The notes under the pieces: generated by a model
Told to the model about the DNA's origin: nothing
Seen by the model: only the letters and a program-made list of their open reading frames with translations
The model's database searches: none
Assembly (NCBI RefSeq): GCF_964204645.1
Contig: NC_134030.1
Coordinates: 19,039,110-19,103,109 of the forward strand
DNA from: Tubulanus polymorphus
Taxonomy: Eukaryota > Nemertea > Palaeonemertea > Tubulaniformes > Tubulanidae
DNA: 64,000 bases
Direction of reading: 5' to 3'
In this document: piece by piece, positions 1,126 to 49,800 of the stretch
Numbering within the stretch: position 1 is the first letter of the stretch
How the letters are laid out: each line of letters starts with the position of its first letter
Translations under genes and position numbers: made by a program

Positions 1126-2058
1126 CGCGGCAATTTGAAACCGAACCACTCCCCTCATTTAAGAAAACCCTGCGCGATGGAACTATTTTGACCTATTCTG
1201 GAGTTGAACTATTGCTCAACTCCAGAACAGGTAAAAGTAGATCTGCGGGTTGGTTCCAATATTTTCAATGAGAAAAGTATCAATACGTAATTAAAAGTAC
1301 TAATCATTGAACCATTCGAACGATACAAATTCTATGTAATTACTGACGCAGAATAATGTATGCTGATCCCAGGCAGAGATCAGCTGATATTAAGCATTGC
1401 GCGCATTAATCTAATTTTGCAAATGAATTTCAATGGGCGTAATTATACTTTTGAAGTGAATGCGTTTTTAATACTGTATGCACGATTTTGAAATACAGTC
1501 GGACCTCACTAAAACGATGATCGTGGAAAATGAACAAAATCATCGTACTAACCTCTTGATAATTTCTAAGACAATTTCATAATAACCTCCATGATTACCT
1601 CATCGGATACCGTATAAACAAGTTTATGAAGATATCATTCTAGAACTATACTGTGTGTTCTGCGTGCGTCGACTACGTCGATTGTGATTCCATTTGTTGC
1701 ACTTAGGCCCTTTTGCATCAACATATTTACACTAACCAACTTTTGAGCAACCGGTCCCAGGTGTTTACATTACTTTATCATTAAGACTCCAAATATGTAG
1801 ATTTTATTGAAATTGTTAATTGTTAATGTTGTGCTTCCGGGCTTGAGTACACTACATGGTCTAAGTAACCGCGCGTTCACAAAATGTTACGATAATTTTT
1901 AGCGCAACAATCAATTCAACCCATTTAATAAAATCATGGTCGACGTTGTCTCATTTGGGTTAACCATATGCCGCAAATCCGTAACGTGGCGGTAATCTCT
2001 CGTCGGTTGGGTTAGTTCAGATTGTCGCATAGAATTGTAAAGGTACCTTTAGCTAGAA

Positions 2059-5000
2059 ATGGATCCAATAATTGTTGCATTGGTGGTAGGTTTAATCGCC
2101 GTGATTTGTATGTATTCCAAGAATCGTAAACGCTACAATCTGCCGCTTGGACCGAAAGGCTACCCTTTTATCGGTAATACTCTAGGTAAGTCGATAGCAT
2201 ATTTCGAGTTTATTTGAATCTGTGTTTTTGATTTCATTTACTACGAATATATAATATGTCAAAGTCGATACCACGGGCGTAAAAAAATCCTGACCCCTGT
2301 CCGGACATTCAAGTTTTCATATTATTTCATAAGTTCGGCATTCGACGGTCATTCACAAATGTGTAAGATTTAACGGCTAGGAATTCGACCACCATTCGAT
2401 TGGAAAAAACATTCCATATTTAGGCATTCTACTTACGACTGGATGTGTAATCATCTATTTATAAGATGGTTACTTCCTGTTTTCATTTCTAGTAATCTCA
2501 TCTAAAAAAATCATATCGACCTGTACCATTGATATCAGCTAACATTCAATCCATCTACAGTGCAGGTCGCAGGCTCTAACACCCGAGGCGTAGGTGCACT
2601 GCACTCATTCTGGTCTTTTTTTCTTAACTCACCCTTGCAAATTCGTTATTTATTCGTGCCTGATTTTAAAACGGCAGGGAAACCACTTCCTTACGAAAGC
2701 TGCGAATGTTATTCGTGGCTCTAGACAGACATTCCACTCTCAAACGATATTCAAAATGTAAAAAATTCTCCCCGCCGCACAGCAACCCCTCAATAAAGTA
2801 TACACTTTGACTGTCTTGTCGTCTAGCAGGGCCCAAAGCTGCCAGCATGAAGCGCATGACAGCGCCATCTACATTATTATTTTTGTGATACTAATCAATT
2901 GTGCGATGAGTAACATCTTATGCAAGCGTCAAAAATCCTGATACCCCTTGTCCACAAAACGTCAGGTATTCGATCGAATATTGCATTAAATGTTGTCAAC
3001 GCCCCGGAATTGTAAACAAACTGCACGTTTGTATAAAGAGCAAGTCTTTACAACGGTCAAATGCTCTCGAAAGTTTTAGCCGGTGTCAAAGGTATTCTGA
3101 TGCAAGATTGGTGTGAGCAGATGGCCAAATATGTTTATGTATCTATATATATTATACTTAATAGGAATTTCTGGTTTTTTTTTTAAAGTTTAAATCTTCT
3201 ATTTTTAGAGTATCATGCAGTGGGCCGTCCTACATGGATGCATTTTACCAATCTAGCTAAACAATACGGAGACGTGTTCCATTTCAAATTAGGTGACAAT
3301 AAACACGAAAATTAGTATTTTTGTGAACTAAATTTTCAGTTTAATTCCAATGCGAATATGTGTGTTTACTTTTTTAGGATACGGAAAACTAGAACATATA
3401 ATTGTTTTGAATAATGCCGACACGATTTGGAAAGCGTTCGTTCACACGGATAAAATCGATAACAAACCGAACATCTGGTCACGTGAGTATCGAAATGAAT
3501 ATCGAATTCAATCAATAGTTTGTAAAACTAGAAATATTCGGGCCTAAATATATGAGCATACGGTTGTTGATTGATAAGCGTGAGTCTATCCGGGTAACGG
3601 TTTTAAGATTTTCCGCCACATGAAAATCTCGCCCTTCCAAATTGAATTTCATAACACGATGATCGATGATTCACATCTTGATTAAGAAAAACATATAATG
3701 ATTTGACTATTTCTACTGAACACTAGATGATCGACAGTAATCTCTTCAGAGTGTACTGAGAATGCTAGCGAAGCACACGAATCATTTTAAGGATTGATAA
3801 CTTGAGGATATTTTGATAGGTCCTGACCCTATACTTTGATCGATACTGCAGAACTTTGGAACAGTGTCTTCGATTTGAGAATATGCGAAATACTGCTCAT
3901 GGTAGAAATAAGATTAAAGTCCACTATTTACGAATTAAAAGAATTTCAAAATCGAGAATTTATTCATTCAAAAATCTAATACACGACGTTTCGATCTCAC
4001 CCTAGAGATCATCGCCGGGTGTGAGAAATAGACTAAAAACAGGGGTATATATACAGAGGAGGACAGGTTAATTGAGTAAATTGGTGAGTGAGTAAATAAT
4101 TAGTGTTTGGCAAGGCATGAAGTAATATACTTAGACAGAAGGGAATCGTACGGAAGAGCAATGCGGCCAACAACATTTTATTTTCCGTTTAAAAAGTGGA
4201 CTTTTCGAGTTTATCTGGCGACTTTTCGACTTAATAAGTCGACTTTTCGACTTAGTAATCAATAATCGTACACTAATTTTACGAAGCTGTTAGAATGGAC
4301 GGACGATGATGTCGGAGTCCGCTGCTGACCAACAGTTACGACGGTGTTTATTAAGGTGAATTACATATCAATTTCCTCAGAATTACTTACTCGGAGAATG
4401 ATGAAAAAAAACTTACTAAAAAAATGAAAAAAAACTTACTCTGAATAAGAAAAAAAGTATTTTCTTCTGTAGTTTCTTAGTTGGAATAGCATTCGAAAAA
4501 AGTGTAATACAAAATATAAGACTTATGATAATAATAATAATAATAATAATAACATATAATAATAATACTAATAAAATTTTTACTTTTTAAAGCGCTAAAT
4601 CTCTTTATGACTCAAAGCGCTTTAAAGACAACATAGATAATTTGAAAAAGAGTATTCCGTTGAGCTAAAACATTCCAGTTGTAAGTTTCATTAAGAATAT
4701 GTGTTTTAGCGTCTCTTCTTGAAGATTAGAATCGACTCACCCTCCCTAATATGTTTTGGAAGTGAGTTCCATAGCGTTTTGGTGGGAAACTACGAAAAGA
4801 TTGGCTATCACTACGGGATGGGTGGTTTACATAAAATATAATTATGAAGACCAGATTGATTAAGATGACGACTAGGAGTATAGTGATAAAAGTTCAGACA
4901 CAGATAAGATGATGCAGAGTTATTGAAACATTTATATGTCATGAGAAAGTACTTGTGCGTGAACAATAACAATGATCCCATGACAAAATCGTAATTGAAT

Positions 5001-5349
5001 TATAAATGTATCACTATTTTTTTATCGTTTATAGTTGATTTCTTCACGGATGGTAGTCGAGATATCGTGAACGGTCAACCTCACGATCTCGTTTGGAAGT
5101 TGATGAGGAGTATTACCACAACCGGGCTCAGGTAAATAAATCGACAGAACAGATCGTGACTTTGTGCATCATGTATATAAGATATCTGATGATAAGACGT
5201 TGTTTATTGAATCAGATTTTAACTTGGCTCATGTTAACAGTCTCGGACTATTAAATCCTAGTCGTCATAGTATAGAAAAACTAGTGTTATTTCTGCTCAT
5301 GTTTGTTTGAAGACTGCTATAAATTGTATCTGTTTCTTTCATCTCCTGA

Positions 5350-5420
<71 letters not shown>

Positions 5421-8400
5421 TATACATGAACTCTTCTTTTTGACACTTGATTCTTGTTCTCCTTTTTATTGTGAAAAGCCAGTAATGTCATCAATATATA
5501 AAGATTAAAATTGAATTGACTTGAACTGTTCAGGTTTGAGCCCAACGCACACGTACAGGACCCGATAAACATAGAAACATTGAAACGCAGAAACAAACGT
5601 GTACGAAACCATGTTTTTCAATTTTTCGAAAACGTCCACGACACAGAGAATCGATCGAAATATTTTTCGGTCACCTGCTCTGCGTTTCCCTGCATCGTGT
5701 TCATTGGGCTTAATGGTGCAAGCGCAGCGAGTGGCACACGTAGAAACGAATGCTCATGGCACACGTATACCGATACACGAAAGGGAAAGCCTTTTCTGGA
5801 GTCTTTCGTCACTTGCGTTAATCCGAAACACGGTTTGCCGACGATCAGGTGGTTTCGAGATTCACTAAAACGTTGTTTCGCGTTCGTAATGTTTAGAATA
5901 GAAAAACAAGAAAAGACGCGGACACGTGAATGTCGCACTCAGATTTGTATATTTATACGTAACTTCTATCATAAAGTGAATGCGCGGAGAACGTATTTGG
6001 TAATCGTCAGCTCCTCAAACCTAGGTATTAACCCACTAGACACCGCGACTTCATGTTCCTGAACAACAAACGCTCAATTAGCCAATTTAATTTGCATATA
6101 AAGATAAAGATCAGTAGAGATGCGGTGTGAAAACTACTGATGCATTACAACCATTGGTTGAATCTCTATCGCTGTATAGATTTGGTCAATCATTGGTTAA
6201 AAGTTTGACCTTTGACCCCCTCAAACTATAGGTGGCGCTATAATACAGCGGACGTTTTGCGGAGATACAAGTTGAACGTCGACGGACATTCTGCGGTCTA
6301 ATGGGTTTTAAAGCAAATAGAAATATAATTCACATTAACTAAAACATGCCAATTATGCATTTCTGAACAAAGCCTAATTCTTTAAATCATTGGAATACAT
6401 AATGATTTCTATCTATATGTTTTATTTAGATATTAGAGATTGCTTATTATAACACCAGGAAGATATACAACGTGTCCAATACTTGACCATATTTCAACAT
6501 TGTAGGAATTCGTTGGCGCTGTCTGACAGTAAGGTTCATTCAGCCACAGATAGAGGTATTGAGGTCGTTAGTAGAAATCTGGACAAACCCTTTGATTTGA
6601 AGTCGACATTGTACCTGATGGTTTTCAACGTCATCTGCGACATGATGCTAAACAAACAGTAAGCCGCTACTGCTATGCACTAATATATTCACAAAACGTC
6701 GCACTTAGAAATATTAACGCTTATTGTGTTTGCTTGTTTTTTAATGGGGTAACGGCACCGCTACTGTGGCAATCGAGGATTCCACGTATGGCAGGTGAGG
6801 ATCCGCCAGGTTCGCTAGTGGTTACTCGGTCACTGCGCTTCAATTTCTTCTACATGTCAGTTTATATTAGAATCCATTCATTTAATTAGTAAATCAAATT
6901 CCAGTAGAACTGTACCATAATACTCTTCGGTAACGTTAATCTTGTATATATGTGGTATCTTGATGATAGGTAAGAATATCTAATGGTATCCTAAATAAAT
7001 TTGGTTAAACCTTATTTATACAGGATATCATCAGAAATTCATACCTATCATCAAGGTGTGAATCGATAATCAACAGGAACATAAACTTTATGTTTCTGTT
7101 CATTATCGATTCAGACCACGCATCGAACGTGACCAGTTCACCAATTGGTTTTTCTCTAAGGTTTGAAGCGGATGATCAAGAGTTTGAAGATTTATACCGA
7201 TCCATGGAGGCGTTGAGCGAAATATTCGGAAATGTCGGCGTACTAGAAGACGTCATACCTCTGATGAGGTATATACCGTACAAGATACCATCGACTAGGA
7301 AATTCATCGAACATTATCACCACGTTCTCGAGTTTTTGAGAAAGAACTTTTGCGAACATGTTGATAATTTCAACCGCGGTAAGACAGATGTTCAATTATC
7401 TGGGGCCAATTTGTCAAAACGTTCGGTAGAGTCAACCAGTGAATAGTTGACGTAGTGATAACTTACAGTCCGTTGTTGCTATGGTATTTTTATCCGCCGG
7501 TTATCTTCGACCAGCTTTAGGGCAAATGACCCTGCATCCAGCTCCACAGTTCTTAAATTTACTCCGAGTTAAAATAAACTCATTTTCAATGAGTTAACTG
7601 AGACAAATGTTAACTCATAACAGTGGAACTGTGGATTCTGGAGTACCAAATTCCACCGTAAATGGCGTTTGAAAAAGTGCTATTTTTTCGCCCTCCGGAT
7701 TCGCCATAACTTTTCCAAAAAAAACCTTACAATATTTTCCATATTATTTCAGTCTTAATGTTCCGTTGCATATAATCTGAAAGAACAGTTTTATACGCAT
7801 TTCCCTTATCATTTGAGTTCAATCAAATATTGGTTTTTTTCATTTTTTATTGCCGTAAGTGAAAGAGATTAATGTGTATGGAATTTAAGATCGAATTCCG
7901 AAATTGTGTTCGAGCGTTTTCTTATTTCTTTGCAGAAAATCTAACGGATATCACGGATTATCTGATAGAAGCGAGAGAAAGAACTCGTGATCGTGATCCA
8001 AAATTAGCAGATGATTTCAGCGATAGACATCTGGTTCAAATCCTCAACGATATTTTTGCAGGTAGATTGCGTCATAACCGATTTATTTATCGACATATTT
8101 TAATTTTGGCCTACATGTCAATTTCCCATCGGTCACCTTAGCCGTGGCCACTCGGAAAGGATTTGGCCCGGGCCAAATAGGCACGGATCAGGCTCGAGCC
8201 AATTTTGGCCTGTGCCTAATAACTGAGCGCACTCAAACACAAACCACTCACTCGATGCTAAACAATGCTCAGCCGCTCGTGTGATCGCGGCTCTTGGTGA
8301 AGGTTCTGGGAACTGTCAACGTCGTTTTAAGTAACTTCACCGGGTGATTCGGACCCGCCATTTCTCAGTTTTGAGTGAAACGGGTTTTTCACTAAGTCCC

Positions 8401-10151
8401 CAAACATACGTCATCAGATAATTTACGTCGACATGTCGCGAAATATCGCGTCATGTACTCACGATATGTCGACAGGTTCATGTCTACTTGACGCGATATA
8501 TCGCGATATGTCGACATCAACAAGGCGACTTGTTGAGTTGGAACGCGACGACTGGAAGCCCCTAAAAATAAGTACGCACTAACGGCGCTTGATGTGTTTT
8601 ATCTCTGAATGGAGCTCACATGTTCACAGTTTCGTGTTTTTTTTAAAGCTGGGATTGACAGTCCTAGCCAATCGTTGAACTGGATCATGTATTTTCTGGC
8701 AAAATATCCCGAGGTACAGAAGAAAATTCACGCCGAACTTGATGAACATATCGGTATGAAATTTCGCTAATAATATACGTACTTTAGTTTAATTAAGCTA
8801 GTATTCTACATCTGGTTTCCTATATCTTGTCGACAGGAGCACGACGCTTGAAAATGGCCGATAAACAGCAATTAGTCTATTGCGAAGCAGTGATGTATGA
8901 AGCGATGAGGTTGTGTCCTGCTGCACCTTTAAGCGTACATTCAGCCGCGTGCGACGTACAACTAGGTAAGATGAAACGCAAGCAATGTCCGTCTAGTTTC
9001 TTCGGACATCGGATCTAGCGACACAGTGTTACCTCACATCTGTAAATGTAGGTCACGTGGACTACATCCTCGCTTGCCAGGGGTCCGTTATCGCTCCCCG
9101 ATAACTCGCTTCCGCCACATTCCCCTGGCCTCACGAAGCGTGATTTCATTACTGGTGCATGACGTCATATATCGATTTGCGAAATACTTCCTTGTTCGGT
9201 AAAACGTTTGCTGATTGGTCCATTTAACGGGAATTCCAACAGCAGCCTTAATGTCGTTTGTTACAAGCACTGTGATTGGTACGACCGGATTCTGGTCGGC
9301 TAATAACGACTCCAACGACTCGTGAGATCAATGGGTTCGGGGAACAGATTTAGCTAAGTGGGTTCGAATCCCAGGACGGGTGAGGATGCGTGGACTAGGT
9401 CATGAGTCAAATTAAACCTTCCACAACCGTGGAACTGGATATGTAGACGTCAAATTAAACTAATTGTGAATCTGAGGCCTAAATCGACAGTTGAACACGG
9501 CATAAGTCAGTGTAGACTTGAATCCAGAGTCAAATTAAACTGGAACTGGGTCAAAAGTCTATTTAAACCTACATAACTGTGAACAACGTAACACGTTTCA
9601 GAATAAAATCCATTTTATTTTAACGTCTAATTGGAAGTAAACACACATTATTGTCAATGGAACTTGTCAAATTAAACCCGATTGAAGCTACACAGCTAAG
9701 TCTTGATTGGATTAATGTGATATTATCTGTCACCATTATAACATATAAGTATTATGTGATGCTGATTCGGGATCATTTCTGTCTATTTGCAGACGGTTTT
9801 GACATTCCTAAAGATAGTCAAGTTTGGGCGAACCTCTACGCTTGCCACCACGACAGCCGGGTCTGGGACGACCCGGAATCGTTCAAACCCGAACGGTTCA
9901 TTCACGCTGATGGGAAGTTGGTAGCTCGCCCTAAATCGTGGTTACCGTTTGGCGCCGGCCGTAGATCGTGCATCGGTGAAAACGCCGCCAGACAACACGT
10001 GTTTCTCTTTTATACGAGCCTGATGCAGAAGTTCAGTATTCGATTTCCGGACGCCAGTCCCATGAAAACGTCACCGCTAACTTCTGATTTCGTAGACAAC
10101 CCGTTTTTCTGCAGGTCGAAGCCATTCGATCTGATTATCAGTGAACGATGA
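2059..10151 (+). CDS. clan 2 microsomal cytochrome P450, CYP17/CYP1-like, copy A
   Basis: Haem-thiolate monooxygenase expected in the ER membrane. Exons: 2059-2185, 3209-3292, 3378-3482, 5035-5131, 6506-6658, 7161-7378, 7936-8061, 8649-8753, 8837-8965 and 9793-10151. All nine introns are GT-AG with consistent phases, and the sum is 1,503 nt (500 residues plus stop). Features in order: hydrophobic anchor at residues 3-18, then basic KNRKR and the hinge; C-helix W126-R130; I-helix AGIDSPSQ (304-311) with the acid D307; ExxR at E360-R363; WDDPESFKPERF (406-417); haem loop FGAGRRSCIGE (434-444) with Cys441. The hinge reads LPLGP, whereas copy B and the family have LPPGP; this may weaken folding but is not fatal. 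The FGAGxRSCIGE form resembles CYP17, but I cannot assign a subfamily or substrate. Intron 3 carries a LINE 3' end and intron 6 carries two fold-back elements. The 3' flank meets an opposing exon at 11014-11223. Confidence 0.9.
3031..3091 (+). promoter_or_regulatory. possible internal promoter and alternative first exon of P450 copy A
   Basis: Inside intron 1 a TATA-like GTATAAAGAG (3031-3040) lies 21 bp upstream of an ATG at 3061. From there a short frame (MLSKVLAGVK) reaches a donor AAAG|GTATTC at 3091, giving 31 nt ending in phase 1. That is exactly the phase needed to join exon 2 (3209). The resulting protein would lack the membrane anchor. The same segment is kept in copy B, although its TATA is changed. 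This is inference only; without a transcript it could be chance. Confidence 0.25.
3555..3830. repeat. intron 3 segment matching 26270-26535 in inverse orientation
   Basis: This part of P450-A intron 3 (for example CGGTTGTTGATTGATAAGCG, and GCGAAGCACACGAATCATTT further on) is found inverted at 26270-26535 with moderate divergence. It is absent from the same intron of copy B, where unrelated sequence (about 20940-22040) takes its place. It may be an old dispersed repeat or part of a third P450 copy. Confidence 0.7.
4495..4990 (-). mobile_element. truncated non-LTR retrotransposon (LINE) 3' end, arm A
   Basis: On the minus strand, in intron 3 of P450-A, this is the partner of the better preserved copy at 20245-20700. 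It shows the remnant of the reverse-transcriptase C-terminus, then a 3' tail with paired AGCGCTTT motifs and an (ATT)n run at 4531-4560. It sits antisense to the P450 gene and was there before the arms duplicated. Confidence 0.6.
5351..5420. repeat. (AT)n microsatellite in P450-A intron 4
   Basis: About 35 uninterrupted AT units. The homologous tract in arm B (19739-19874) is about twice as long. Long Ile-Tyr frames over either tract are artefacts. Confidence 0.97.
7402..7532. mobile_element. fold-back MITE, GGGGCC-ended family, in P450-A intron 6
   Basis: Starts GGGGCCAATTTGTCAAAACG and ends in a diverged inverted copy, with the family core AACCAGTGAATAGTTGAC and ATCCGCCGGTTATCTT. Better copies are at 62816-62944 and 58747-58873; the arm B partner is at 16764-16893. 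Confidence 0.7.
7531..7641. mobile_element. fold-back MITE, GTTCCACAGTTGTGAGTTA family, in P450-A intron 6
   Basis: Inverted ends (CCAGCTCCACAGTTCTTAA against AACAGTGGAACTGTGGATTC) enclose GAGTTAAAATAAACTC. Arm B partner at 16650-16766. Other copies are at 32339-32448, 39934-40029 and 40521-40613. Confidence 0.75.
8412..8575. mobile_element. degenerate TIR element in P450-A intron 7
   Basis: Shortened partner of the 407-bp element in arm B (15410-15816). It keeps the palindromic blocks CGATATATCGCGATATGTCGAC and GGCGACTTGTTGAGTTGGAA but has lost the middle and the clean ends. The longer block is quoted in part: its key feature is CGCGATATATCGCG flanked by TGTCGAC. Confidence 0.55.
9040..9680. 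repeat. repeat-derived sequence in P450-A intron 9 with recurring GTCAAATTAAAC
   Basis: GTCAAATTAAAC recurs near 9406, 9450, 9530 and 9667, between stretches that mention the GTGGAACTGG motif of the fold-back family. A B-box-like GGGTTCGAATCCC lies at 9361. The whole block is kept in arm B (14280-15000). It looks like layered old repeats; no complete element was defined. Confidence 0.45.
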
Positions 10152-10975
10152 AGGACAAAAAACGCGAAATTCAATTTTGATTCACTTAATTAATATCAAT
10201 TTCACTAATTTACTGTGGTTGCTGTTTTCATTCAAAAATGCTTGGTGTGCAAACTTTTTTCTCATTTCACATACGTTTTTAATGGACGCGAATTTAATGA
10301 TTACGACACACAATGTTTAGTGGTTAGAGGGTTTAATCTTAGTTAACTTTTAGGTGGTTAGGTAGAATGTGTTCGTCTTGTCTCGTTTTTATTCCAGGAA
10401 TTGTTCGCTATGACCCTTATGCGCCTCCATACATACAGAATATACATGTATGAAAAAACTGACACGATACACAAACCATACAAATAACAGACTCACAAAT
10501 TAAAACATATTTAGAATTTATTATTATCATTTGAAAATATGATTTCCTTTTAAAAGATTTACATAAAATTCTACTAGGATTACATGAAAAAGCTTGATTT
10601 AATTTGTCGCTTGGAATGTTAAAAATTCCACCATATGAAAAGCTCACCATAATAAGAGCATTTATAATATAAGTTACCTCCACTTGATTCCAATGATAAG
10701 GCAAAATTCCAATAACAATCTTAAAAATAAAATGAATGCATTAAATTTCCTCAAACAGTCATTTAAAAGCAATGAACCCTTTGAAATACTGAATTTTTCA
10801 GACATGTTTATTATACTATACCTCGTGTGTGGATCGGGGAAGTTTGTGCGAAGAATGGGTGTGTGTATTGTGGGTGCTTCACTTAATTTCCTTCATTTGA
10901 TATCGGCACATTTTATACTCGTATTTATATTCATGTATAAATATTATGTTATAAAATGTTTCGATTACTTTGAAA

Positions 10976-10981
10976 AATAAA
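10976..10981 (+). terminator. AATAAA polyadenylation signal candidate, P450-A
   Basis: First clear AATAAA downstream of the stop on the plus strand, about 825 bp away, and conserved in arm B. It sits only 33 bp from the stop codon of the opposing exon at 11014-11223, so the two transcription units would converge closely. It could instead be a retroelement tail, since (ATT)n follows. Confidence 0.45.
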
Positions 10982-11013
10982 GATTATTATTATTGATATT
11001 ATCATTATTATTA

Positions 11014-11223
11014 TTATTCACTGGTTTCGCGGGTATTATTATTCGCGGGTCGACTGAAGTATGATTCACCATACAATCCAACATCTTCCTCAGCGCCTAG
11101 GATTACGCGTGGAGCAGTATTGGATGAGTGCTGCCCCCTAGAGGTGTTAGGTTGCTGCCTGCCGGGGTCTGGTCGCAACATGTTGTCGATTCGTGCGTAG
11201 ATTGTCTCATCTTCACCGATATC
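11014..11223 (-). CDS. terminal exon of an unidentified gene, intact copy (arm A)
   Basis: Not recognised. The minus strand gives an acceptor (TTCTATTTCAG) and then 69 open codons and a stop. The peptide is hydrophilic and acidic: it begins DIGEDETIYARIDNM, continues with RPDPGRQQPN and GAEEDVGLYGESYF, and ends NTRETSE. It reads like a cytoplasmic tail; TIYARI fits the loose pattern of a tyrosine-based signalling motif. In arm B the same exon (12768-12887) is cut to 39 codons by a 1-bp deletion, but there two upstream exons remain in the spacer. Here no upstream exon is found before the arm ends, so this copy is probably not expressed as such. The coding claim rests on the open frame, splice site and phase fit, not on homology. 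Confidence 0.45.
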   Translation of the reverse strand, partial: DIGEDETIYARIDNMLRPDPGRQQPNTSRGQHSSNTAPRVILGAEEDVGLYGESYFSRPANNNTRETSE

Positions 11224-11553
11224 CTGAAATAGAATAATGCTTATGATATCCTTTCTAAATGTATGCGGATATCTAGAACCAGTCTGGACCCTGCACCCAC
11301 TCAGCCGGGATGCCCGCAGATTGACGTGGTCGTTCCAGGCTTGTTATAGATTGTTGTTTACGGGGAACATCCTACTGTACGACTAACGCCAATGAGAGCT
11401 TTACCTCCGGGTCGAAGATGTCTGTGAGCGCCTGCTATAAACCGCCCTACTGCTTCGTACCCAGCGTCGACCATACTCAAATCAGGGAAGTGTGATGAGA
11501 CACACTTCACACTCATCACACTTCCCTGCTCAAATCTAGCACCGTTAACTTAC

Positions 11554-12054
11554 TGACATCTTCAGCATCAGTCGGTAGATAGAATAACGGATAATCCCAG
11601 AAAATCAAATCGAGTTTCTCGTCTTCGGCAACACAGTTGAATACATCGGAATATCTTACCTCTCCAGGGACGTTGTAACGATTGAAGTTGTAACGGGTGT
11701 TGTCCAGAGCTCGACGATTTATATCGGTAGCCAAAACATAGCTCAAATTTGTTTTATTGCGTAGATACAACGCTGATACAACCGGTTCCGCATTTCCGCT
11801 ATTTCCAAGAATCTAGCACCGGTTTGAGTTGCTTCTGGTCAATTTTCGACAAATCCCTCGATTCCGTCCATGTAGAAGACGCCTTTGAAATTCACGAATT
11901 TGTGGTCGCAAAGCGTAAACTCGACTTGTCCCCCCCCCCGACTCCGCGATAGCCAGCTGTCGTTTTGTTAAACCCGCTTTGCGATCTTCATATAGCTTCA
12001 GTTTGGCTTCCATTTCGAGCGATAGTTTTTTTCGACCGTATACAGACGTTTTTA
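11554..12054 (-). pseudogene. methyltransferase fragment (small-domain/HemK-like fold), three lesions
   Basis: Lies in the spacer of the inverted duplication. Pieces in different minus-strand frames read as one class I SAM-dependent methyltransferase: an N-terminal part with MEAKLKLYEDRKAGL, a middle part with FVNFKGVFYMDGIEGF, motif I remnants FLEI then SGNAEPVVSALYLRN, the acidic loop YVLATDINRRAL, and the motif IV region LDLIFWDYPLFY, where an NPPY-like motif is expected. Lesions: one base too many in a run of ten G (11930-11939), a TGA after GFVEN, and a frameshift just before SGN. The 3' end is a still-good splice donor (A|GTAAGT at 11554), so this is one exon of a genomic copy rather than a processed retrocopy; later exons are absent. 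The exact family and substrate are unknown. Confidence 0.65.
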
Positions 12055-12363
12055 GAAATTGTACAATGATAATTTACAATTATTTTTCATGATTGATAAA
12101 ACCCGTCTCGATCTGCATGAGTGTATAGCATAGTATAGTATAGTATATTTCGCCGAATAGATTGATACACAGATAAGCCTATGTAATTATACTTCAATAT
12201 GATACGAAACAGTATGAACATATCATATCAATCATTGTAGCAATAGATTATGCGAGGAATTAGGCCAAGTTGGCTTAAACTAGTCCAAATCCCTCGTCCA
12301 TTCGCTGCCTCATACCGTATAAACCCTCATGTGCACACGTTACCAGACATTTAGGATACATAG

Positions 12364-12887
12364 GTTCTTCCACCAGTTCCACCTATTCAACCCGTTCCAC
12401 CTCTTCCACTCATGTCTGAGGTTTCTGATGTCGGTTTCATTGAAGGAGGTGCGTGCACTGTATCTCACGTCCAGAGATACCGCAATCCACTTAGAGAATT
12501 CTCTAAATTAATAATCGCAATCTTTTTTTTAAAATTCTTTTGTAGATGAGAACAGAGAACATGGCGCCACGACTGATCGCGTTTATGTTGAGGTTTGTGT
12601 CAAACCAGGCTAGAACTACTCATTCCCCCGTAAACAACAATCTATAACAAGCCTGGAACGACCACGTCAATCAGCGGGCATCCCGGCTGAGTGGGTGCAG
12701 GGTCCAGACTGGTTCTAGATATCCGCATACATTTAGAAAGGATATAATAAGCATTATTCTATTTCAGGATATCGGTGAAGATGGGGCAATCTACGCACGA
12801 ATCGACAATATGTCGCGACCAGACCCCGGCAGGCTGCAACCTAGCACCTATAGGGGGCGGCACTCATCCAATCTGCTCCACGCGTAA
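12364..12887 (+). CDS. last three exons of the same unidentified gene, shortened copy (spacer and arm B)
   Basis: Proposed exons are 12364-12448 (proline-rich VLPPVPPIQPVPPLPL then MSEVSDVGFIEG), 12546-12592 (DENREHGATTDRVYVE) and 12768-12887 (DIGEDGAIYARIDNMSRP, stopping at SSNLLHA). The phases 1, 0 and stop fit at both junctions. The first donor (G|GTGCGT) is weak, and the acceptor of the first exon is chosen only because the frame upstream is closed. Compared with the arm A copy, one base is missing near 12871, giving an early stop 30 codons sooner. No domain was recognised. The acidic, proline-rich composition suggests a cytoplasmic tail or a linker. It may be the remains of a longer gene whose 5' part was lost when the duplication formed. 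Confidence 0.4.
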
Positions 12888-13008
12888 TCCTAGGCGCTGA
12901 GGAAGATGTTGGATTGTATGGTGAATCATACTTCAGTCGACCCGCGAATAATAATACCCGCGAAACCAGTGAATAATAATAATAATGATAAGATCAATAA
13001 TAATAATC

Positions 13009-13014
13009 TTTATT
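13009..13014 (-). terminator. AATAAA polyadenylation signal candidate, P450-B
   Basis: Minus-strand AATAAA about 805 bp past the stop codon, at the position matching 10976-10981 in arm A. It may belong to the same old repeat tail. Confidence 0.4.
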
Positions 13015-13818
13015 TTTCAAAGAAATCGAAACAGTTTATAACATAATATTCATACATGAATATAAATACGAGTATAAAATGTGCCGATATCAAATGAAGG
13101 AAATTAAGTGAAGCACCCACAATACACACACCCATTCTTCGCGCAAACTTCCCCAATCCACACACGAGATATAGTATAGTAAACATGTCTGAAAAATTCA
13201 GTATTTCAAGAGTTCATTTTTAAATGACTGTACGAGGGAATTAAATGCCGTGTTCGATTTTTAAGGTTGCTATTGGAATTTTGCCATATCACTGGAATCA
13301 AGTGGAGGTAACTTATATCATAATGCTTTTATTGTGGTGAACTTTTCATATTTTGGAATTTTTAACATTCCAAGCGATAAAATAAATCCAGCATTTTCAT
13401 GTAATCCTAGTAGAATTTTATGTAAATTTTTTAAAAGGAAATCATATTTTCAAATGATAACAATAAATTCCAGATAAGTTTTAATTTGTGAGTCTGTTAT
13501 TTGTATGGTTTGTCCATCGTGTCAGTTTTTTTTCATGTATATTCTGTATGCTTAGGGTCATAGCGAACGATTCTTGGAATAAAAACGAGACAAGACGAAC
13601 ACATTCTACCTAACGACGTAAAAGTTAACTAAGATTAAACCCTGTAACCACTAAACATTGTGTGTCGTAATCATTAAATTCGCGTCCATTAAAAACGTTT
13701 GTGAGATGAGAAAAAGGTCCGCACACCAAGCATTTTTGAATGAAAACAGCAACCACAGTAAATTAGTGAAATTGTTATTAATTAAGTGAATCAAAATTGA
13801 ATTTCGCGTTTTTGTCCT

Positions 13819-23494
<9,676 letters not shown>

Positions 23495-24322
23495 TTTTAG
23501 GTAAGGTACCTTTACTTTTTCGTCCACACAATTCTATGCGACAAACTGAAGTAACCCACCCGACGAGAGATTTGCAGCATATGGTTAACCCAAATGAGAC
23601 AACGTCGTTCATGATTTTATTAAATGGGTTGAATTGATTGTTCCGCTAAAAATTATCGTAACATTTCCGAACGTGCGGTTACTCATGAACATGTAGTGTA
23701 CTCAAGCACAACATTAACAATTTCAACAAAATCTACATATTTGGAGTCTTAATGATATAGTACACTCTTAGATCACATGGTTCTTCGGGGGTTCTTCGAA
23801 GAACCGTGGGGTTCTTGGTGAGGCTTTAAGGTGCTTCAACAATATGGAATGCCTAAAGTTGACACAATTGTCAATTAAGAATAAAGCAGACCTGCAACAG
23901 GGAATAATTAGTATAGCTGATGAATAAAACTGATTTTCTATGTGGTGTAGGTTATATACAAAACATTTTGACTGGAAATTAGAATTGGGTTAACTTTGAA
24001 AACAATTTACTATGTATCATCGCAATATTCAAAAATTGAATATATACGGTATCCGATGAGGTAATCATGGAGGTTATTATGAAATTGTCTTTATCAACGC
24101 TCATCGTATTAGCGAAGTCCGATTGTATTTCAAAATCGTACATACAGTATTGAAAACGCATTCACTTAAAATGCAATGTATAAGTAAAGCCCATCGAAAT
24201 TCATTTGCAAAATTAGATCAATGCACGCAATGCTTGATATCTGCTGATTATAATCTGTGTCTGGAATCAGCATACATTGTTCTGCGTGTGGTATTTATTA
24301 CATAGAATTTGTATCGTTTGAA

Positions 24323-25499: not shown

Positions 25500-25775
25500 T
25501 GTATGCGACAAATAAGGAAAATACAGTTAATTTCCCTGTTTTCGGCTTAAATTTGAAGTAGATGAAAACCTGTTTTCTTTGAATTGAAGCCACGGGAACC
25601 ACTTAACCTCATTTTCAAGCCCGCTTAGAATTGGCGATGTTGGGTTATTATGTCATTGATTTGCACAAAAAGCACACCAGTATAATCAAATTCCCATCCT
25701 CGATGGCAAGCGTTTCCAAAAACCCAGCAACAGTGAGTTCCGGGAACTCATTTTGACATGGAATGTCGGAATCCA
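25500..25775 (+). repeat. left arm of a second inverted repeat, 276 bp
   Basis: Runs from TGTATGCGACAAATAAGG to GACATGGAATGTCGGAATCC. The reverse complement at 29577-29852 has the same length and is nearly identical by eye. No protein-coding signal was recognised in it. Confidence 0.88.
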
Positions 25776-29576: not shown

Positions 29577-29852
29577 TGGATTCCGACATTCCATGTCAAA
29601 ATGAGTTCCCGGAACTCACTGTTGCTGGGTTTTTGGAAACGCTTGCCATCGAGGATGGGAATTTGATTATACTGGTGTCCGTTTTGTGCAAATCAATGAC
29701 ATAATAACCCAACATCGCCAATTCTAAGCCGGCTTGAAAATGAGGTTAAGTGGTTCCCGTGGCTTCAATTCAAAGAAAACAGGTTTTCATCTACTTCAAA
29801 TTTAAGCCGAAAACAGGGAAATTAACTGTATTTTCCTTATTTGTCGCATACA
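29577..29852 (-). repeat. right arm of the second inverted repeat, 276 bp
   Basis: Reverse complement of 25500-25775. The spacer of 3.8 kb encloses the two worn P450 intron segments. No target-site duplication was seen outside the arms. Confidence 0.88.
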
Positions 29853-30159
29853 CCCTTAAAACTGCAGTCAGCGATTCTTGAATGTTTCCCGAGGATGACT
29901 CACAATAACGACTGCGTATCGTGGTTGTTGTTGTCAATCTAGTCACACAGAGTCCAAGCCGTGCCAGGAAATATCACAGGTACCCGCTAAAAAACTCAAT
30001 TTGTTGTCCATTTTGCTTCTATTTTGGTTGGATGTCCGTTGTTGTGGTGAAATCCGCTTTGTGTATCTGTTTATACTTGTTCATTTTGTGAGTGATCGGC
30101 TTAGCGTAAACGTTCCGAATTTGTCGTTAAACAGCGGTAGTTCGCGTTCTGAAGCAGCG

Positions 30160-31046
30160 ATGAACGGCACGGACTACGAAGATATCTTGGTTTACACAAC
30201 ACTCCAGAGCTTCTTCCAGAAGCCACGGACGTTCCTTCTTATAGCCCTGATCGCGTCGCCGATACTATTCGCGTTCGGTCTTTTCGGCAATTCGGCCACG
30301 TTATGTATCATGTCGAGCAACAGATTCCGGCATCTTTCCTACGCCAACTATCTGATCGCGTTGTCGCTCAGTGATTTAATGTATTGCCTTGTTTCGACAT
30401 TGATGCCTATGTTGCAGTTCTTACTTCAGACGCGAGCCCGCGGCCCGATCTACATAATGAATTCGCGTATCGGCTGTCAAATCTACCAATACGTAAGCGT
30501 CATTTCGTTGTGCACGAGTTCGTGGATGATAGTGGCTATATCTTTAGAACGGTTGGCAGTCGTAATGTTCCCTTTTTCCGCCCGTTTGATATGCACTCCT
30601 AGATTCTCGCGCGCGGTAATATTCTTCATCCTAGTCACCAATGCCGCCGTCGAGGTCAAGCGTGTTTGATTTACCTTCCCGAGTTCATCAAGTCGTCGAG
30701 GTACCATACGATTTTCGCTTTCGCATCGCCCGTCTGCCTGGTGTTGATTTCGAACGTTTTGATTATGGTTCTATTGATTCGTAGGCGAAATAGTGTGGCT
30801 TCTTCGGGCGACAAAACGGGCAAAACTAAACGCACGACTGTCATGTTGGTTACGGTATCTCTCACGTTCGCTGCATTCACCTTACCGTTGACGATCGTAA
30901 TTATGATGCCGTTCGACGCGATTGCGCTTCTATCCGTATCTCAGATACATTCGGTGAATTACGTCGTCAATTTCTACTTGTATCTTTTACTCGGCAAAGA
31001 GATCCGTACGTATTTTCTGCAGAAGTTCAAATCTTGTCGTTATTAA
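30160..31046 (+). pseudogene. rhodopsin-family GPCR, broken between TM4 and TM5
   Basis: Single-exon peptide-receptor-like GPCR in two frames. From ATG 30160 (MNGTDYEDI): TM1 with GNSATLCIM, TM2 with ALSLSDLMYCL, a TM3 region with ICL2 ISLERLAVVMFPF in place of the DRY motif, and the start of TM4 (AVIFFILVTNAA). The frame then runs off into VKRV and stops at 30669. A second frame takes over at about 30666-31046: TM5 (FASPVCLVLISNVLIMVLLI), a basic loop (GDKTGKTKRTTV), TM6 (TVSLTFAAFTLPLTIVIM) and TM7 (YVVNFYLYLLL), where NPxxY is degenerate. The rest of TM4 and the second extracellular loop, with its conserved cysteine, are missing and the frame is shifted. An intron does not explain it: removing sequence between the repeated GTCGAGGT flanks leaves the wrong frame. 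Ligand class unknown; FMRFamide/TRH-type receptors are the closest impression. Confidence 0.75.
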
Positions 31047-43800: not shown

Positions 43801-46800
43801 TGGCTTGCTAAGTAGATTAGTAGGGTAAGCTTACGCTGCTGATACATCCCGCTGGCCAGGTTGGGATGCCTCCAACTAAATACCACGCCAGAAGAACGAC
43901 TAAGCTCGGTTTGTGTCGGGTTCGAGCTTCTGCGGGAGGAACCAAACTTTAGCAAGCGAGGATGATGTCCGCACTAGATGCTTAACCTACCCCGTGTTCA
44001 TGACTAAGGGGAAATTGGACATCTTATGGACATATTTCGGTAATTCTATTTCAAATATAATCGAAAGTGAGCTTTCAACAAACTGACCTCTCTTTGCGCC
44101 ATCTCTTTCTCCTTCGCTACGATATCGATATCGTCCTCTTCCTCGTCGTCTTCGTCGTCGACGTCCTCTTCAGTGTGGTGTAACGACGGTCGTATGGCTT
44201 TCTTCGTCACTACGGCCGGTTCTCTCGGGTATTGGAATGTAGCGTACGGGTTTATATTACCATCCGAATCGCCTACGATGGAACGGGTTAGAAATCGATT
44301 GAAGAATGAATGAAGGATAAATGAAGAGTGAGTGAATGAACGAAGAGTGAATGAATGAATGAAGAAGGAATGAATGAACGAAAAATAAATAAATGAACGG
44401 AATGAATGAACGAAGAATGAATGAATGAACGGAATGAATGAATGAAGAATGAACGAAAGAACGGCTACGATGGAACAGATTAGAAATCGATTGAAGAATG
44501 GATGAAGAATATATAAAGAGTGAATGAATGAATATGAATGAAAAATGAACAAACGGAACGGGACGGAACGAACGAACGAACGAACGAACGAACGAACGAA
44601 CGAACGAACGAACGAACGAAACTGGTCAGTGATACCCCAGTCAGTCGCAATCAGGGTAGCTGCAACTTACCGGAGACGGAATTCTCGAAACTGTTATCGC
44701 TGTTAGTGTGACTGTTCTGCTGGAAGGCCCACATGCGCGTGTCGTCCGGTCCAGTATCGTCCGAATGATCGGTCAATAGATTCATATTGCGGTGAGTGAT
44801 GATCGGCTCGGGCGTGTACGGCGTCTCGCGTGACGTATCCGACTCGAAGTTCAACCGTTTGTCGAGGTCGTTCATCAACGACGTTTCGGCTGTGAGATCG
44901 CGGCGAAGGTTTGGTCCCATTGAATCTAAAATGGCGATATTATCACATGACAATTGTAAACGAACGTCAATTGCCATAGTTCATTCCATTTCAAGCAAGT
45001 CTAGAATCTACTATATCAAATAATCCTCAAAAAAACCTTCTCACTTTTAACTCCCGGGATAGTTTTCATTGATTTGATTTATTCAGAGAGGGATATTCAA
45101 TTTGATTTTAAGTGAAATATAGGATGAACTGAAAAACTACGACTAGCGACATCTGGTGGATACTCACTTGCCTCGAGTAGGACAATCTATTAACAGTGGT
45201 TAATATTATTATCTATTGACATAGTGGATAATGGCCTACCGCAAACTAGCGGCACCTGGTGTTAATCCTCACTTTCCACAAGTGGAACCGACAATATTGC
45301 CAGGTTGCCGCGTACGGATTACTAGCTTAAATCCTTTACACGGAGAAAATCCGCGATCACAACACGCGATACCACTTATTTCAATTTAACATTTCCGATA
45401 TCGCACTCACTTTTATAAATCATTCGCATCTGCCTCCTTCTACAGAACAACACAACGGCTACGGCTAAAACTAGTACAAACACCAGCGTAGCGCATAGAG
45501 GCACCATTATATAGATCTTCTCATAAAACTGCTGTTCCTGTTTGTGCACAATGAATATCGGTTTAATCGTACCTGGAATCGAAGAAGAAACATTTCAATG
45601 AGAAATGTAAGTCGCAAGTTACACAGATCTCTTCGTCGTTGTCGAATAAAATCTGCTTCTGAGAAATGCATTTTAATCATCTAAACTAAGTATTATTCGC
45701 GAGTGTATATATTGCGTGGTCGATGCCGGGCCATATGAGAAATGAATCGTGATTGTTATCAGTATCATTATTAGTAAAACATCATGATTGTTAAAATTGT
45801 CTAATTTTAAGAAGAGTAAAAATGAAGCCATCAAAACCATCGAAAAAAGTCATGTGTTGGTTTTGAGAAGGTCATTAATCCCCGTTTTCACTACTTTTGA
45901 CTCATAATGAATAACGTTTATATTCTGAATTTGTTCTGCTTTTTTTGCTGCTTTCAGCCTGGAATTTAGTATGCGGCACTTTCACGAAGATTCATACATA
46001 AAACTACGAAATAATTCACAGTTTTTACAAAGAAAAATGTGAGACTTACTGCCTGTGTAGGTTAGCGTTGCAAACTGCAGTTCAGCCTCAGTCAAACCGG
46101 CATCGTTATACGCCGTGACCTTCATGATGTACCACGTGGCCGGGTGCAGGTCACGTACGACAAAATGATTCTGAAGGAAAATGTGAAACAATGAATTCGA
46201 TTCTCGAAAATTTACGGAGCCCCGAAGGTGACATGTTGATAAATAAATACATTTTCGTACGAACTAAACGATTATCATTATTAATCAAAACAAATACTCA
46301 CGACATCCGGTTCGATGTGGTTCGACACTGTCCGCCAGGTGTCGTCACCCCATACTCTATAGCGGATACTGTATCCGGTGATCGGGCAACCACCGTCTAA
46401 CCACGTGTTCAATGCCAAGGTCACCATCGTGGAATTGATGTCCCGTATGAGATTGTCCTGGGCCGGGCTTATAGCCGCTAAAATGATAAGATTGTAATGA
46501 TAAGATCATTTTGATTCGACTCACTTAGAATGATCATGTTATAGGCCGTCCCGCTAGATGGCGTAATAATCGGTAGGAAATTCTAATCAAAATTTAATTC
46601 ATCAATTATTTCGTTTCATCGACTCTTTCTTGATGTTTTCCACTAACAATTCCCGTCCTTAGATCAACAAGCGAAATCCCTTATAACTTGTAGCAAAAAT
46701 ACTGATTACTCTAAGCTTCTTGCTATATACCGAGTTCTTGGGAGTTGGCTGTTCCTAAAACATAAAATCTAAATCACAAATGATCGACTTACTTGAGCCA

Positions 46801-49800
46801 TTAGTCTTAGCAGTGACGTCCTTGCTCATATCGCCGGGCCCGACTCTATTGAACGCCTGCACTCGGAACTTGTACGTCGTACCGCAGTACAGATCCGTCA
46901 CCGTGTAGGATCGAACCTGCGCCTTCAGTTTCACGTTCTGCCAGTCCTGGAATGCTTTCTTATAATAGAAGATGAAGCCCCGAATGGCGCTGCCTCCGTT
47001 GCTGCCCGAGCGCCAGTTGATCTGAATCGATGAGGTCGTCGTCGCCGCCACTGTGACGAACGGTTGTTTCGGCGGAGCTGTAACGATACACGAATTAAAC
47101 CCGTTGTTCAAAGTCGTCTTCGTTTCTCGATCAACCCAGCGATGGTTAGACATGATTGCTTGAATTAGGTTTCAAGGCCTTCGGGGCACGCGTTCGACTA
47201 GGGGAAACTATGGGCAAGCAAGCTATTCAAAAGACAGCCAGCGGAGAGGTGTAAGGGTATGGCGGAAGCTATCTCCACCGAGGACGAAGTTATTTCCAGG
47301 TTTAGGCATTGTAAGGGGGATAAACTGAAGTAGCAGTTAAGCACTAGTGGCTAATAAAATGTTATGCAGTCTGCAGGTGGGTTTCAAAACCATACATTAT
47401 CTGTAATGATACTGCAATTTCTGATAGGTCCTTCTTTTGGATCGAACAATGGATCGATTTTGGTTTCCATAAAAAAGTGACTGTCTAATACCTTTGAGAA
47501 TGAGAAAAGCCGCAACAGTCAAGAAAAAACTGAATGAGCATTTGTTCACCCACTACATATTAATTAGCAGCTATGGGCATCACGTCTAGTCGCTACCCGC
47601 CCTGTTGTTATGACTGCATGATAAATTAGTTTTTGAAAATTGCTCAAAGAATCAGCCCGAAAGGTCAAATGCTCATTTAGTTTTTCATTGTGATTGTGGT
47701 TTAATTTTACTACACAAAATGGACCGATTCCATTCGTGATTGCATCTCTATAGCCCCAATATGTGATAGCCATGGTAGGAACGGCCCGTGATGAATTCCC
47801 GTGTAAGACGAATGCATCCCTGATATGGCTGAGGATATGCCTGATGATCCAGCCATCTAACGAACAGCTCACCCGTGTTACTGAGTCAGAAATGTGGGAA
47901 ATACTAATTCGTTCCAAAACTAGATTACCATGGGGAATGTGTTGTTGTTTTCAAAACTAGGTCACAATGGGGGATACGTTTCTGGGTCATGTTGTCTTAA
48001 AACTGGGTCATCAAATCACAATCTTCATGTAAAAGTCGATTTGATCCACCGTCGACTTATAATAATAAAGAAATCATTAAAATCTGCTTTCTTATTTTTC
48101 TCGAAAACTTGAATCGGGAACAACCGAACGCTGTTAGTGGCGAATGTTACATTTTGATTATTCAATCGCAGGTTTCGGGTTTTTGTTCGAAATTTGAGAA
48201 TGTCACGAACTCACTCACATAAAACAAGAGCTCGACTGAAACTGAAAGACGACGAGGGCGCATGCGGGAAAATATAGTCAGTGCCGAAATAAATGCAAGC
48301 ATTTCAGTGAGATTCGTGGCGACGGATTTTCTCGCAGAAAAAGATTTGTTTCTTGAAGTTCCGAGTTTTATTTTGATGATACTTAATATTTCTTCGCAGA
48401 GAATTCGTCACCGCCACCAATCCGAAACCGTGACCCAAATCCGCGATTTAATCATAACCGATAGTTTAGAACGCTTATAGAATAAATTCTAATTCATAAT
48501 TTCTTTTTAAAATTTTTTTTTCTGAATGATTGTTTGTTGTCCGGACTAAAGGTTACGATTAAATCGCCGATTTTCTCGATAAGAGGGCCGATAAATTCGG
48601 GAACAAATAAAAAACCATAAATGAATAACATCTTCTAACGAACGAAAAAAAAAATGGCGCGGACATATCGTTCATACCGAATGACGCGGAAAAGGAAATA
48701 ACGACTGAAACTCGGCAAACATTTCCACACGAACACAAAACATGCAGATTCATAGCTATACTTACAATTCCATTCGCGATTTACTTTAAAAAAATTCAAA
48801 TTCAACAATGAAATATTCGATTAGTTTTCAAAAACCTCGTGTCATGGAATAATAATCAATAGAATTTCTGTTAATTAACCTTTTTAAGGAAACGACACAT
48901 AACTCAAACATTTTTTTTTTTTGAATTAGGGTTTAAATATCGAGTCGAATTAAGTAGTTTTCTAAGTCAATCTATTAATTTTGTAAGTTATTTCCAATCG
49001 AAAAAAATCAAAAATGCACGCTTATTATACAGAACATTCAAGTTAATGTAAGTACTTAATTAAGAAATTAAATTTCACGATCTAAATTAAGTCCTTTTCA
49101 AACTTTAAATTCACAACTGTGGAACTGGAACTGGATATTTCCGATAACCTATCGTAGATCGGACATGAATTTCCAATTACATTCTCCAAAAAGAAAAATT
49201 TCACTTATCGAGATACATTTTTTTCTGTGTTTACCTTGTACAACTAATGAAACGGTGATCTCATCGGCTCCGTGCACGTTGAACGCCCTGCACGTGTAGT
49301 TAGCCGCGTCCGAACTCTCGATTTGTCGGATCTCCAAAGTTCCGTTCGGGAACACGTGAAACCGTTTACCGTTTCGGATCATTTTTCCCCTGAAAAAAAA
49401 AATCACGACAAATGTCAATAATTCGCTTCGATAACGAAATACATGTGTTTTACTAATGAATATATCAGTATTGATTGTGATGATTTCCATTGCGCAATAA
49501 TCTGATACAGTTCAGAAAGCGTTCAGACTCATCGTTTCTGGTATTTTTATCTGTATGTCTCTAAACTCTAACCATGTATCGGTCATCACTACCTAAGAAA
49601 TAGTAACGACCGAGCTGCTAGTGAAAGTAGAGTAATCTACGAGGCAAGGAATGCTTTAACGCCTGGCTGTAGAGAGGCAATGGGGATGTCTTGCCATTAC
49701 GATAATGTATGGGGCTAGAATCGATTGTTTCAGCAAACACTAGGTCTGCGACTTCCACCCGCGTCCATCCATCTGCTTCGAGGGTAATCGAACCCGTTAG

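Follow-up and report, generated by a model that had tools for sequence, protein, structure and literature searches.

Tandem P450 clusters in animals form by local expansion, have conserved intron positions, and are usually arranged head to tail. Long inverted repeats in Caenorhabditis carry convergent or divergent pairs of paralogous genes, for which recurrent gene conversion between the arms has been proposed (PMC1803023). In the part of that report drawn on here, the arms of a divergent pair are 95.7–99.2% identical within each of three species, and the arms of the convergent hsp-16 locus are 100% identical in C. elegans, 83–94% identical in C. remanei, and <61% identical in C. briggsae (PMC1803023). 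Human fold-back duplications, as described in the portion of the source used here, have spacers of 766–70,466 bp and inverted microhomology of 2–8 bp (PMC3907307). In Folsomia candida, 11 of 15 blocks are palindromic within scaffolds, according to the portion of the report used here (PMC5490193).

The locus described here is a mirror-image pair of genes for a detoxification-type P450 enzyme in a 64-kb window, i.e., the whole stretch of DNA that was analysed (C6:19,039,110–19,103,109), from an assembly of 268 Mb in 77 contigs in which no COX1 match was found. The window contains no N. A first-pass annotation had described two inverted arms of about 10.0 and 11.7 kb around a 1.26 kb spacer, and self-BLAST of the window recovered this geometry, with arms of 10.05 kb (1315–11365) and 11.70 kb (24322–12626) on either side of an unduplicated spacer of 1,260 bases:

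1315..11365, plus strand: arm A, inverted and probably derived (self-BLAST, arm alignment)
12626..24322, minus strand: arm B, oriented like the four remaining modelled genes of the family (self-BLAST; strands of P1–P4)
11366..12625, no strand: unduplicated spacer, without a matching inverted block

The inverted blocks form a chain that runs from 1315–1633/24322–24025 to 8459–11365/15530–12626, with unaligned stretches in between. Identity is 75% in the outermost block and 85–92.5% in the other blocks, and the strongest inverted block scores 4,289 bits. Chance was rejected as the source of the arm pair: in 20 of 20 dinucleotide shuffles of window positions 1–25000, the inverted match reached at most 44.6 bits. 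The inverted pair is real, well resolved, and ordinary in kind.

Rebuilding the exon models also upheld the claim that the arms hold two intact, convergent ten-exon P450 genes with equal exon lengths and about 22 of 500 residues apart:

2059..10151, plus strand: P450 gene A, ten exons, PF00067 match with E 2.3e-91
2059–2185, 3209–3292, 3378–3482, 5035–5131, 6506–6658, plus strand: gene A exons 1–5 (exon model)
7161–7378, 7936–8061, 8649–8753, 8837–8965, 9793–10151, plus strand: gene A exons 6–10 (exon model)
13819..23494, minus strand: P450 gene B, ten exons (exon model)
23494–23368, 22313–22230, 22146–22042, 20195–20099, 18617–18465, minus strand: gene B exons 1–5 (exon model)
17134–16917, 16347–16222, 15342–15238, 15154–15026, 14177–13819, minus strand: gene B exons 6–10 (exon model)

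Exon lengths are the same in both genes (127, 84, 105, 97, 153, 218, 126, 105, 129, and 359 bases), GT/AG boundaries are present in all nine introns of each, and neither contains an internal stop. Each gene encodes 500 amino acids, of which 478 are identical between the two and 22 differ. The PF00067 match, from a Pfam scan of gene A only, spans profile positions 1–452 of 462. The P450 motifs FxxGxRxCxG (heme-binding), ExxR, and PERF are intact by eye in both translations. In A alone, the PPGP hinge motif, which is important in P450s, has lost one proline; B and P1–P4 all have P at residue 30.

Among the best 10 of the 60 matches shown (305 solved sequences matched), gene A is closest to CYP1A1, CYP1A2, CYP17, CYP2D6, and CYP2R1. 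Within solved structures only, CYP3A4 scored 100–104 bits versus 209.6 for the top match, and neither CYP4 nor mitochondrial P450s were among the 60 shown of the 305. Gene A is accordingly classed as a clan-2 type P450, its nearest relatives of solved structure being CYP1/CYP17/CYP2; CYP1, CYP2, and CYP17 belong to clan 2. In NCBIfam, eight bacterial-type P450 models were matched, every one far under its cut-off. The two products are predicted to be, probably, membrane-bound monooxygenases that would differ slightly in substrate preference and be driven by partly different promoters. It had been proposed that such a pair can double gene dose. This seems doubtful from the flanking sequence, because A and B share homology for only 744 and 828 bases, respectively, upstream of the ATG, and a replaced stretch falls within it.

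The replaced intron segments noted in the first-pass annotation are real in both self-BLAST and the arm alignment (A 3510–4258 opposite B 22014–20932; A 6967–7086 opposite B 18168–17209):

3510..4258, no strand: arm A intron-3 segment absent from B, with a repeat at 3558–3790 within it (self-BLAST, arm alignment)
20932..22014, no strand: arm B intron-3 segment, opposite A 3510–4258, parts of which match intron 3 of P2 and P3
17209..18168, no strand: B intron-5 stretch of about 0.96 kb, opposite 0.12 kb in A (6967–7086; self-BLAST, arm alignment)

The repeat at 3558–3790 in A intron 3 is 98% identical to a repeat in P2 intron 9. Further pairs of non-homologous segments are A 1634–1770 versus B 24024–23763 and most of A 8272–8458 versus B 16012–15531. 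An intronic AT microsatellite is unequal in length between the arms (37.5 units at 5349–5424 and 68.5 units at 19737–19874), and a 52-base minisatellite of 3.9 copies (932–1125) lies about 190 bases outside the outer edge of arm A.

Six members of the family were modelled (A, B, and P1–P4), all on the same chromosome (C6). P1, P2, and P3 are neighbouring copies in one orientation (C6:18,958,919–18,991,152, minus strand), and P4 is located at C6:18,526,428–18,518,813, also on the minus strand. Among the six, only A is reversed, with B and P1–P4 all on the minus strand. P1–P4 share the ten-exon plan of A and B, with 6 additional bases in exon 6 of P1–P3 and 3 additional bases in exon 1 of P2. 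At the protein level, P1–P3 match A or B at 381–402 of 500 residues and P4 at 341–348 of 500. In a tree of the six modelled genes, which leaves out relatives elsewhere such as those at C6:22.567 Mb, on C3, and on C2, support for A and B as each other's closest relatives is 100%, and the branching of P1–P3 is poorly supported (50–83%).

A genome-wide search with PF00067 returned at least 104 matches, the majority of which are single exons. C3 carries another inverted P450 pair (11,564,006–11,567,916 and 11,577,527–11,582,586), with divergent genes of a more distant P450 type, main pieces that are 79–96% identical, and about 9.6 kb between the arms; inverted P450 duplicates are therefore not unique to A and B in this genome. 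Near-full-profile P450 matches in a single open frame of 500–561 codons were found at C2:4643792, C9:14429001, C3:24731013, C8:16598657, C3:8388919, and C4:20870700, and these six are probably intronless genes, since almost the whole profile lies in one open frame. P450s of a different type occupy the plus strand just past P1 (C6:18934717–18947699).

The spacer between the arms contains remnants of other sequence:

11364..12013, minus strand: methyltransferase pseudogene carrying a hairpin insert of 46 bases besides frame changes and an in-frame stop
11483..11528, minus strand: the 46-base insert in the pseudogene, with a 17-base inverted repeat and flanked by 7–8 base direct repeats
12120..12365, no strand: dispersed repeat; at least 31 of the 43 listed places match this part of the query

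The count for the dispersed repeat is a lower bound, with 40 of 67 candidates scored. Pfam matches to pieces of the spacer methyltransferase are weak and under the curated cut-offs. Its relatives form a dispersed family, of which two lie in tandem at C7:562381–565133 and the others at C6:19318165 and C10:3191617 (L020–L023), each readable in a single open frame. The stop in frame, the frame changes, the insert, and the absence of a 3' end present in these relatives led us to reject a working methyltransferase gene in the spacer. The insert site is uninterrupted in all four relatives. Membership of the 46-base insert in a dispersed transposon family is unsupported, as it has a single copy genome-wide at up to 3 mismatches.

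Homology of the pseudogene to L020–L023 stops at window position 11364, the inner edge of arm A. The match ends at base 2106 of L020, and the homology of L020 to L021–L023 continues for 63–111 bases beyond. Past the break point, 41–43 more codons are common to L020, L021, and L023; L022 follows this reading for only about 7 residues and is possibly broken itself. Because the methyltransferase homology ends at the inner edge of the arm, it appears that another gene was broken where arm A joins the spacer. Outside the spacer, the methyltransferase tail had no significant match in C6:18.95–19.10 Mb (best other E 0.99).

We consider it probable that the pair is an inverted segmental duplication within a clan-2 type P450 family, in which B is the original and A arose by fold-back or template switch. 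On three grounds, the derived copy is most likely to be A: B shares the orientation of P1–P4, the methyltransferase break lies at the inner edge of A, and the intron-3 segment of B matches intron 3 of P2 and P3. These intron-3 matches are weak (72% over 176 bases and 76% over 204 bases), and the B segment is probably ancestral; the matches might be a dispersed repeat instead. With sister genes used to assign residue changes to lineages, 9 of the 22 fall to A and 7 to B, with 6 unassigned, and such nearly even counts give no indication that A is newer.

Under the proposed mechanism, the fold-back or template switch would have started inside the methyltransferase copy downstream of B, about 10–12 kb of B would have been copied backwards to yield arm A, and the 3' end of the methyltransferase copy would have been removed. 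A deletion must be added to the model because the tail has no significant match nearby. From the TCCC common to L020, L022, and the arm edge, where the relatives stand in for lost ancestral sequence, we infer a candidate junction microhomology. A fold-back or template switch fits because an inverted copy, an unduplicated kilobase spacer, and short microhomology are its expected traces. Since then, substitutions, indels, and repeat insertions would have driven A and B about 6% apart at silent sites and at well-aligned noncoding sites; homogenisation would have been slight, and exon 6 would have taken on extra amino-acid change.

Divergence between A and B places the duplication in time. By NG86, dN is 0.021 and dS is 0.071, with dS values of 0.059 and 0.050 from two other methods; against P1–P3, either gene gives an NG86 dS of 0.31–0.46. 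This agrees with the earlier assessment that the duplication is neither new nor ancient. A local identity filter retained 7,907 of the 9,901 columns in the arm alignment and removed 1,994. In the kept, well-aligned columns, 417 of 6,412 noncoding positions differ (6.5%), which understates the difference across whole arms because the two outermost 400-base windows of the unfiltered alignment differ by 18–20%.

The first-pass annotation had also held that such a pair would be prone to cruciform formation, deletion, and gene conversion, the last of which bears on an alternative account of these values, namely that the inverted pair is old and has been kept alike by recurrent conversion between the arms. 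Noncoding divergence is uneven across 21 bins of 300 columns (112 columns left over; chi-square 46.8, 20 df, p = 6e-4), with the peak of 11.7% in the outermost bin, but the p-value rises to 0.014 when that bin is dropped. Three identical runs of at least 100 bases occur in the aligned arms. An exon-10 run of 241 bases is the longest, with a permutation p of 0.014 under uniform placement, but of 0.056 with the exon-6 differences held fixed. Silent divergence (0.05–0.07) and noncoding divergence (6.5%) moreover agree with each other, as they would after a single event. Gene conversion between the arms is thus weakly suggested by the sequence, and that part of the earlier claim stands only to this extent; our reading is that there has been little conversion since duplication. 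We regard the maintenance of an old pair by recurrent conversion as unlikely, and it would in any case be compatible with an origin by fold-back or template switch.

Differences between the two proteins are concentrated in one exon:

7161..7378 in A (plus strand), 17134–16917 in B: exon 6, with the most nonsynonymous differences of all exons (arm comparison)

In the 218 bases of exon 6, 12 differences are nonsynonymous, versus 13 in 1,285 bases elsewhere (p = 6e-5). Synonymous differences are also somewhat more frequent there, with 5 in 218 versus 16 in 1,285 (p = 0.21), and the ratio of nonsynonymous to synonymous differences in exon 6 is not significantly different from that in the other exons (p = 0.13). 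We draw no conclusion of selection on exon 6, because its synonymous rate is raised as well and the ratios do not differ significantly. It is also the least conserved exon when A and B are compared with P1–P3 (mean identity 0.664), so fast change in exon 6 is a trait of the family. On P450 maps, exon 6 presumably covers substrate-recognition sites 2 and 3. That the mirror layout serves as a diversification device, in which pairing of the arms sometimes homogenises the heme-binding exon 10 and exon 6 diverges fast to give a shared catalytic core with different substrates, is a speculation to which we give very little credence. In a related speculation, read-through transcripts over the spacer would fold into long hairpins and give rise to small RNAs against the P450 family.

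The arrangement of P1–P3 as neighbours in one orientation makes another history conceivable, in which a P450 copy was inserted from elsewhere or one member of a direct tandem pair was inverted. This would require an extra event, and inverting A alone must break the DNA at both edges of the arm, whereas the gene broken at the A edge of the spacer is explained directly by fold-back. We therefore doubt insertion or inversion and prefer fold-back or template switch from B. An assembly artefact, in which two divergent alleles of one locus were joined in opposite orientation, is unlikely: noncoding divergence of 6.5% in well-aligned columns could be allelic in very polymorphic marine invertebrates, but the window is free of N, homology ends at both outer edges without the matching flanks that alleles would be expected to share, the junction falls at a defined point within the methyltransferase copy, and no third close copy of the arm-A query 1318–3000 (1,683 bases) is seen, because its matches other than A and B cover at most 189 query bases among the 36 listed.

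Several other features were identified in the window. An inverted pair of 276 bases (25500–25775 and 29577–29852), 98.9% identical and about 3.8 kb apart, could represent the ends of a young DNA transposon. A rhodopsin-type GPCR gene is present at 29899–31043, in two overlapping frames with 7tm_1 matches. Minus-strand open frames at 46758–57661 contain Ig and fibronectin III domains, including one DSCAM-type fn3 match just under the cut-off; we read the Ig/fibronectin and GPCR domains as the gene content of an animal. A long minus-strand open frame at 1–783 resembles C-type lectin and LDL-A modules by eye, with no Pfam match.

Among the papers listed on P450s with palindromes or inverted repeats, on palindromes, and on the mechanism of inverted duplication, no title or opening of an abstract described a locus resembling this one. 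The closest systems share individual traits with it. Human fold-back duplications are alike in having an inverted copy, a kilobase-scale spacer (disomic in the human cases), and, putatively here, short junction microhomology; in the portion of the source used, however, the human cases are large, found in patients, and often located beside terminal deletions, whereas A and B are about 10 kb, interstitial, and diverged (PMC3907307). Folsomia candida likewise has invertebrate genes placed in palindromes by inverted duplication, although its blocks, as described in that part of the report, hold multiple genes in a parthenogen, and here there is one gene per arm (PMC5490193).

A and B represent a well-preserved case of an ordinary route of gene-family growth. 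The event cut through a gene that can still be recognised, so that one junction of the inverted duplication remains readable, and the sister genes hint at the original arm. The pair could offer a test of the lifespan of inverted gene pairs in animals, and of whether an exon presumed to influence substrate choice outpaces the rest in divergence after duplication. Like tandem P450 clusters, it reflects local growth of a family, but with one copy reversed. The Caenorhabditis pairs, in the part of the report drawn on, are similar in that mirror-image paralogues flank a short spacer that is not duplicated, again in an animal (PMC1803023). Compared to the two Caenorhabditis examples given there, the blocks here are 75–92.5% identical, signs of homogenisation are weak, and one species is represented (PMC1803023). 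The A/B pair is a new example of the known inverted paralogous gene pairs rather than a new kind.
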